Shown piece after piece: positions 49,480 to 50,880 of a stretch of DNA of 64,000 nt. Position numbers and translations under genes: made by a program. Source of the stretch: Comamonas granuli NBRC 101663 (GTDB taxonomy: Bacteria; Pseudomonadota; Gammaproteobacteria; Burkholderiales; Burkholderiaceae_C); assembly GCF_000739995.1 (NCBI RefSeq), contig NZ_BBJX01000004.1, positions 124,001 through 188,000 of the forward strand, written 5' to 3'. Positions within the stretch are counted from its first letter, which is position 1, and each line of letters opens with the position of its first letter. The notes below the pieces were generated by a model. It was not told where the DNA came from. It did no database searches and saw only the letters and a list, made by a program, of their open reading frames with translations.

Positions 49480-49507
49480 AAAAAAAAAGCCCGGCAGAAC
49501 CGGGCTT
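49480..49507 (-). terminator. Strong terminator downstream of the phasin gene
   Basis: AAGCCCGG/CCGGGCTT (49487-49494 and 49500-49507) with a five-base loop is followed on the minus strand by nine T. It lies about 130 bases after the phasin stop codon and would end that transcript. The stretch between, 49508-49637, has short inverted repeats (GGATCC twice, CACT/AGTG) but no gene. Confidence 0.88.
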
Positions 49508-49637: not shown

Positions 49638-50186
49638 TTAACGCTTGCGCGGAGCGGCCGTCTTGGCGGCGTCGGCAGCGCTGGCGGCCACGGCGTTGAA
49701 GTTGGCTTCGGCGGCGTCGGTGGCTTGCTTGACGGCCTTTTGCACGGATTCGAAGGCGTTGTTGGCAGCAGAGACGGCGCTCTTCATCATGGCCACGGCG
49801 GTCTCGGAACCGGCGGGAGCGTTCTTGGCGGCGGCTTCCACGAGGTTGGAGATGTTCTTCTGCACTTCGCTGGCCTTGGCTTCGGCGGCCTTGGTGAATT
49901 CGCTGCTGGTGCCGGTGGCGATGTCGTACAGGTGGCGGCTGTAGGAGGCAGTCTTCTCGGCCATGGGCTGCAGCAGGCCGGCTTGCAGGGCCATGAGTTC
50001 TTGCACGTCCTTGACGCTGAGCACGGCCTGGGTGTGGCTGGCGGCCTCGTTCAGGGCGGCGCGCGAGGCCGTCAGGTTCAGCTCGACGAGCTTTTCCACG
50101 CCTTCAAAGGCCTTGGCCGTCAGGCCAAACAGGGTTTCGATGTTGGCCTTGTGGGCGGCGAGGATTTGTTCGGTGGTCAGGGACAT
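49638..50186 (-). CDS. phaP: Phasin, polyhydroxyalkanoate granule-associated protein
   Basis: Phasins coat polyhydroxyalkanoate granules and control their size. The 182 residues start [20 protein letters not shown] and match the phasin family ([40 protein letters not shown]), a fully helical Ala-rich protein ending in basic AAPRKR. It indicates that the organism stores PHA. The ATG at 50184-50186 was chosen by homology. Two TGCA-centred palindromes flank its predicted promoter, the expected place for the PHA-sensing repressor PhaR. Confidence 0.93.
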
Positions 50187-50258
50187 GTCGTTTCTCCATG
50201 GCAGGGAGGCGGGGTGCCTCGGGTTGCGGAACGTCTGCCCTGTCCTGGCCCTGGTAGC

Positions 50259-50333
50259 CATGTTGCAGTGCAGCATGAACGTATTGTAGGGGCCGATTCC
50301 GGAATTGCAAGCAAAATTGTTGCATTGCAACAA
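50259..50333. promoter_or_regulatory. phaP promoter flanked by two PhaR-like palindromes
   Basis: The perfect palindrome TTGTTGCATTGCAACAA is at 50317-50333 and the near-perfect CATGTTGCAGTGCAGCATG at 50259-50277. Both have a TTGCAnTGCA core. Between them, on the minus strand, are a TTGCAA -35-like box (50305-50310) and TACAAT (50283-50288) with 16 bases spacing. The layout fits repression by PhaR, which is known to bind TGC-rich palindromes at phaP promoters. Confidence 0.6.
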
Positions 50334-50433
50334 ATCGACCTGCGGGCCGGGCTGGCGCACTGCGGCAGGCCCGGTTCACCCAGGTGACTGCCTTGCCTTG
50401 GCCGCCGCACAGGCGGCGCGCACAATGCGGGCC

Positions 50434-50880
50434 ATGAATGCACCGCCCCGCCCCATGCCCCTGGCGCGCAGCGCCTACCGCGCCTTTCGCACCATCACCA
50501 CGCGCTGGATGGACAACGACGTGTACGGCCATGTGAACAACGTCGTCTACTACAGCTGGTTCGATACGGCCGTGAATGCCTGCCTGATCGAGCGCGGGGC
50601 GCTCGACATCCATGCCGGGACGACCATAGGCCTGGTCATCGAGACGCAGTGCAATTACTTTGCGCCGCTGGCCTTCCCCCAGACCATCGAGGCGGGCATC
50701 CGCGTGGCGCACCTGGGGCAATCGAGCGTGCGCTACGAGGTGGGCCTGTTCGCGCAGGGCGCGCCGCAGACGGCGGCGGCGGGGCATTTCGTCCATGTGT
50801 ACGTGGACCGTGCCACGCGGCGCCCGGTGCCCTTGCCCGAGGCCCTGCGCCAGGTGCTCGAAGACCTGCGCGCCGCCTGA
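50434..50880 (+). CDS. 4-hydroxybenzoyl-CoA thioesterase family acyl-CoA thioesterase
   Basis: The 148-residue hotdog-fold protein contains the family active-site signature [20 protein letters not shown] (catalytic aspartate in D-x-x-GHVNN) and the later [20 protein letters not shown] strand. It hydrolyses acyl-CoA thioesters; the chain specificity is not visible. The ATG at 50434 is used; an ATG nine bases earlier is in frame and equally possible. It is divergent from phaP. Confidence 0.87.

Follow-up and report, generated by a model that had tools for sequence, protein, structure and literature searches.

The closest described counterparts of the locus studied here are found in R. eutropha, Herbaspirillum seropedicae and Sinorhizobium meliloti. 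In R. eutropha, footprints of the repressor PhaR are reported at two places in the phaP1 promoter, directly upstream of the -35 hexamer and around the transcription start, and the PhaR consensus is given as YTKNTGCRNYGCANMAR (PMC12849132). The H. seropedicae regulator PhbF represses phaP1 and phbF in E. coli, and its motif is protected at phbF in a DNase I footprint (PMC3206438). Blocking of the polymerase as the means of repression, with release by PHB, is reported in R. eutropha and has been proposed for Herbaspirillum. The two-operator PhaR mechanism is therefore already known, having been published for R. eutropha. What we add is a promoter-anchored architecture across the Comamonadaceae, together with phaZ and sdhC as candidate targets; in the open-licence PMC literature that we searched, no listed title dealt with PhaR sites in Comamonadaceae or with PhaR at a betaproteobacterial sdhC.

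We analysed a window of 64,000 nucleotides from Comamonas granuli NBRC 101663 (contig NZ_BBJX01000004.1), which carries the only Phasin_2 gene, phaP, found in the 3.5 Mb genome (Table 1). The nearest named records to this phaP include a Giesbergeria MAG (90% identity), Acidovorax sp. 210-6 (88%) and Simplicispira lacusdiani (87%). An earlier, sequence-only reading had described one perfect and one nearly perfect palindrome upstream of phaP, sharing TTGCAnTGCA and enclosing a plausible -35/-10 pair on the phaP strand, and this description held throughout. The upstream palindrome, TTGTTGCATTGCAACAA (site 2), is perfect around a one-base centre; in the downstream palindrome, CATGTTGCAGTGCAGCATG (site 1 and one flanking base on either side), 8 of 9 arm positions pair; TTGCANTGCA is present in both; and a promoter scan agrees with the enclosed pair, TTGCAA-16-TACAAT, which is of sigma-70 type. 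Site 2 lies 6 bp from the -35 hexamer, the -10 hexamer lies 6 nt from site 1, and the two sites are 57 bp apart, centre to centre. From the position of the hexamers, we infer that phaP transcription starts near 50276, at the edge of the downstream palindrome.

Table 1. Predicted and annotated features at C. granuli phaP (window coordinates) and the sdhC box of the same genome
Feature	Position	Strand	Basis or remark
Site 2, upstream PhaR operator (predicted), TTGTTGCAATGCAACAA	50317..50333	-	17-nt perfect palindrome; consensus match
Site 1, start-side PhaR operator (predicted), ATGCTGCACTGCAACAT	50260..50276	-	core of the 19-nt palindrome at 50259-50277
-35 hexamer TTGCAA	50305..50310	-	promoter scan
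-10 hexamer TACAAT, spacer 16	50283..50288	-	promoter scan
GGAG, likely phaP ribosome-binding site	50194..50197	-	direct sequence reading
phaP, phasin (Phasin_2, 182 aa)	49638..50186	-	Pfam domain and genome search
Terminator-like hairpin and T run, downstream of phaP	49487..49507	-	terminator scan
Divergent acyl-CoA thioesterase-like gene (4HBT_2)	50425..50880	+	Pfam domain; not needed for the operator pair
sdhC box, C. granuli genome	C21:106549-106565 (L063 near 1501)		relatives L273-L294, L352-L360

The locus resembles phaP1 of R. eutropha H16 in its palindromes with one-base centres, in their placement upstream of the -35 hexamer and around the (here inferred) start, and in its sigma-70 promoter. 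It differs from R. eutropha phaP1 in that both C. granuli sites are near-perfect TGCANTGCA palindromes at their 57-bp distance. A third, in-gene site is predicted for R. eutropha phaP1, whereas C. granuli phaP lacks one: we found none within the window phaP at up to three mismatches. Of 80 relatives, 66 had some in-gene phaP match at up to three mismatches and 25 at two, and since so few carried the core (3/80) we regard in-gene matches as background.

Palindromy alone was rejected as evidence, because 11 odd-centred palindromes with arms of 8 bp are present in the window (30 dinucleotide shuffles gave a mean of 2.7 and a maximum of 6). A single palindrome of this size is unremarkable, and the close pairing is the unusual part: two TGCANTGCA cores within 75 bp of each other occurred in none of 30 window shuffles. 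The shared element TTGCANTGCA has three matches at two places in the window, a count of three being reached in 11 of 100 shuffles. A search of all 3.5 Mb of the genome with the extended pattern TGNTGCANTGCA gave 25 matches, against 2 for the reversed-pattern control, and the pattern matched on both strands at five places, two of which are the phaP palindrome pair. Two other patterns proved too loose, namely TGNTGCNNNGCAA alone (156 genome matches compared with 25 for the reversed pattern) and the 17-mer with up to two mismatches (838 genome places compared with 218). Near-perfect TGC/GCA dyads also occur at C34:101260 upstream of ilvA, at C34:254970 near an Lrp-like gene, at C30:201122 at an NMT1-like gene and at C28:160181 upstream of kup (gene names by eye).

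Site 2 agrees with the PhaR consensus of R. eutropha in all 17 positions, an exact match that occurs at six places in the genome in total, and site 1 deviates from the consensus at two positions, both of them outermost bases. Both sites also conform to TG[N]TGC[N]3GCAA, the motif given for Herbaspirillum PhbF in PMC3206438, and the phaP1 probe reported as bound by PhaR from R. eutropha contains TTGGTGCGCCGCAACAA, which by eye is identical to site 2 at 13 of 17 positions (PMC3570403). A single PhaR gene of C. granuli scores above the family cut-off (TIGR01848), and it has the Pfam domains PHB_acc_N (DNA-binding) and PHB_acc. We considered 46 genomes with a completeness of 90% or more and a contamination of 5% or less; 39 of them matched phaP and 40 matched PhaR. 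Because the sites fit the consensus and the PhbF motif, because the layout is that of R. eutropha and because a PhaR gene is present, we consider it very probable that the two palindromes are operators of PhaR, a PHB-responsive repressor, at a sigma-70-type phaP promoter. The two-operator PhaR model advanced by the sequence-only reading thus finds support in sequence comparison, to which the conservation of the sites and of their distance from the promoter, described below, also contributes. By analogy with R. eutropha and Herbaspirillum, we infer binding, repression and granule titration here as well: PhaR on its operators would block the polymerase and repress phaP, the formation of PHB granules would draw PhaR to the granule surface and allow phaP to be transcribed, and phasin covering the granules would send PhaR back to the DNA.

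The same reading had proposed that the motif should recur upstream of phaR and phaC, which proved right for phaR and wrong for phaC. The C. granuli phaR gene carries a well-matched site, ATGCTGCACTGCAAAAC at C31:31626, which directly follows a TAGAAT, has 2 mismatches to the consensus and has the 13-mer TGCTGCACTGCAA in common with site 1. Loci were retrieved for 30 phaR matches; 33 genomes of the family had a match, and 15 of the loci come from these. A core site directly after a TAGAAT/TAAAAT box was found in 10 of the 15 family loci, and no core site near phaR in the other five, one of which is cut by a contig end. This pattern is like that of the H. seropedicae PhbF regulon, with its motif at phaP1 and phbF. 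In R. eutropha, however, the phaR promoter probe was reported to be bound by PhaR about as poorly as control DNA (PMC3570403), so the phaR site in C. granuli may reflect a difference between lineages. Upstream of the phaR -10 box, the alignment (L002 and family phaR loci) shows a conserved AGGGTATTCC-like element between phaR and a divergent gene whose first residues look MaoC/phosphotransacetylase-type. For phaC, none of 21 loci (the C. granuli genome and 20 of the same genus, being those over the family cut-off of 44 matches listed) had a site within 450 nt before the profile start, a stretch that in C. granuli reaches approximately 310 nt before the likely start codon. Allowing two mismatches, the 4 kb upstream of phaC in the C. 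granuli genome also contained no match. We do not count a site at phaC among the defining features of a betaproteobacterial-type PhaR operator. H. seropedicae PhbF, in contrast, also bound promoter regions at phbC and other genes.

Conservation of the phaP pair was assessed in relatives. Of the 159 relatives returned by a phasin scan of genome contigs, we retained the best 80; 79 of these (L153, with 53 nt, was dropped) and the window provided 80 phaP upstream regions of at least 200 nt. Taking as a site any sequence with up to two mismatches to YTKNTGCRNYGCANMAR, we found at least two sites in 72 regions, one in 7 and none in 1, counts that are not independent because the 80 include closely related or duplicate rows, such as L105 and L106. 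Among 1600 dinucleotide shuffles serving as background, two sites appeared in 0.25% and one site in 8.7%. The pair was 55-61 bp apart in 72 of the 80 regions (71 of 79 relatives and the window), with a spacing of 55 bp once, 57 bp four times, 58 bp in 24 regions, 59 bp in 31, 60 bp in 11 and 61 bp once. Hexamers of the form TTGnnn and nAnnnT, 15-19 nt apart, lay between the sites in 72 of 72 regions, the script having sought exactly such a pair. The promoter spacer was 16 nt in 50 regions, 17 nt in 20 and 18 nt in 2, and the distance from the end of the -10 hexamer to site 1 was 7 nt in 60 of the 72 and 6 nt in 10. Eight of the 80 regions were unpaired, and seven of these kept the start-side site alone. 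Outside the family, we took 20 of the 29 more distant phasin matches listed (15 genomes). A pair 56-61 bp apart was present in 11 of the 20 when the limit was two mismatches per site, raised to three where the TGC and GCA core was intact, and in 8 of the 20 when both sites had at most two mismatches. These results indicate that the two-operator design of R. eutropha is an old promoter architecture that has been closely kept throughout the Comamonadaceae, with operator positions set by the hexamers. They also provide a precise PhaR box for the family and a short target list that includes phaZ and sdhC.

The sites might belong to another regulator that recognizes TTGCA-N-TGCAA, given that related TGC/GCA dyads stand elsewhere at genes without a known PHA role, kup and ilvA among them. 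We regard this as very unlikely, since two published PhaR motifs match, the layout is that footprinted at R. eutropha phaP1, a PhaR gene is present and sites occur at phaR and phaZ as well. The divergent thioesterase gene raises a different question, namely whether site 2, or both sites, serve that gene and not phaP. It often lies divergently next to phaP, its match falling within the upstream flank in 58 of 80 relatives. In 19 of these, however, the match begins over 1.1 kb from phaP, and 17 of the 19 keep both phaP sites; the site spacing, moreover, follows the phaP promoter hexamers. Service to the thioesterase in place of phaP is therefore highly improbable; its co-regulation with phaP in the C. 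granuli genome is possible. That the upstream palindrome acts as an RNA hairpin, such as a terminator, is hardly credible, although the scan flags 50333-50317 (-) as terminator-like, with 7 pairs, a 3-nt loop and then TTTTGC. The T run is short, and with the next two genes upstream of phaP on the other strand, a terminator here would have no neighbouring minus-strand gene to act on. In 72 loci, moreover, both the TGC and the GCA triplets are kept as sequence, an argument that is partly circular because those sites were found by motif match.

Within the PhaR model, the two sites could cooperate by looping through a PhaR tetramer, in the manner of LacI, and not mainly by blocking the polymerase. 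PhbF is reported to be a tetramer in solution (PMC3206438) and a LacI-like arrangement has been proposed for R. eutropha (PMC12849132), yet we consider looping doubtful at phaP. The site spacing tends upward with the promoter spacer, from 55-60 bp (mostly 58-59) at a 16-nt spacer through 58-60 bp at 17 nt to 60-61 bp at 18 nt; because it tracks the spacer, the sites look anchored to the hexamers and not to one helical phase. A distance of 57-60 bp is also short for a DNA loop without a bending protein, and retention of the start-side site in most unpaired regions likewise speaks against looping. Together with the near-constant distance from the -10 hexamer to site 1, the spacing trend leans towards steric blocking with site 1 as the main operator. 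We conclude that site 1 is probably the main PhaR operator and site 2 an auxiliary one.

Candidate boxes were also found at phaZ and sdhC. Of 26 genomes of the genus searched for phaZ (PHB_depo_C), the gene of the intracellular depolymerase, 24 matched, and the TGCA-N-TGCA core was present in all 24 same-genus loci, 26-46 nt before the start codon. In 21 of the 24 the 17-mer was identical, ATATTGCACTGCAACAT (own genome C30:271501, L089, L249; L250-L272), at 30-50 nt before the start codon; it has three mismatches to the R. eutropha consensus, all outside the core, and overlaps a TATATT box as read from the alignment. At sdhC (Sdh_cyt), a box like TTGCTGCATTGCAATAG was present in 22 of 22 anchored same-genus loci, that of C. 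granuli included, and in 8 of 9 loci of other genera of the family, with six weaker sdhC-like matches (L295-L300) left out of the counts. Within the genus this box overlaps a conserved TAGAAT. In 22 loci of other families there was no full-core box at the family position and in 21 of them no comparable box there, the exception, L335, having a 1-mismatch match without the TGC triplet; weak core matches stood elsewhere at the sdhC loci L339, L346 and L335. None of five genomes with sdhC but no PhaR match (one of them, G041, 68% complete) had the box, a comparison that does not discriminate because most PhaR-bearing genomes outside the family also lack it.

The sdhC box is possibly an operator of the adjacent GntR/UTRA regulator, a match to which adjoins sdhC in 22 of 22 same-genus loci and 9 of 9 loci of other genera of the family. 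The same neighbour is present in 12 of 22 loci of other families, however, and these families lack a full-core box at the family position. We consider PhaR the likeliest owner of both the phaZ and the sdhC boxes. The arrangement is like the AniA/PhaR regulon of S. meliloti, for which palindromic TGC/GCA-type sites are described at phasin, depolymerase and sdhC promoters (PMC12542648); S. meliloti is an alphaproteobacterium, however, and the Comamonadaceae sdhC box differs in its flanks and overlaps the conserved TAGAAT. The same source reports control of the phaZ promoter by S. meliloti PhaR and weak binding of the sdhC fragment, with the module given as ND, and in a Bradyrhizobium phaR mutant SdhA and SdhB were reported as more abundant (PMC10888616). 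An R. eutropha pull-down recovered PhaR with the phaZ3 and phaZ5 promoters at low intensity, below the authors' cut-off for specific binding (PMC11332829); this result and the weak sdhC binding in S. meliloti count against the phaZ and sdhC reading. We judge the chances to be even that Comamonadaceae PhaR reaches beyond granule proteins through a single conserved box overlapping the -10 region of phaZ and of the succinate dehydrogenase operon, in which sdhC comes first. If it does, granule formation would free phasin, depolymerase and a TCA-cycle/respiratory enzyme together, and respiration would be tied to stored polymer, storage acting on it directly through a granule-bound repressor of sdhC.

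Further sequence features accompany site 2 of the phaP pair in some relatives. A TTAGA-N-TCTAA dyad, absent from the window phaP, lies just upstream of site 2 in L109, L124, L128, L129, L136, L137 and L157. Of the 72 paired regions, 50 carry CTA[AG] within 10 nt at the upstream edge of this site, compared with 2.7% of background windows.
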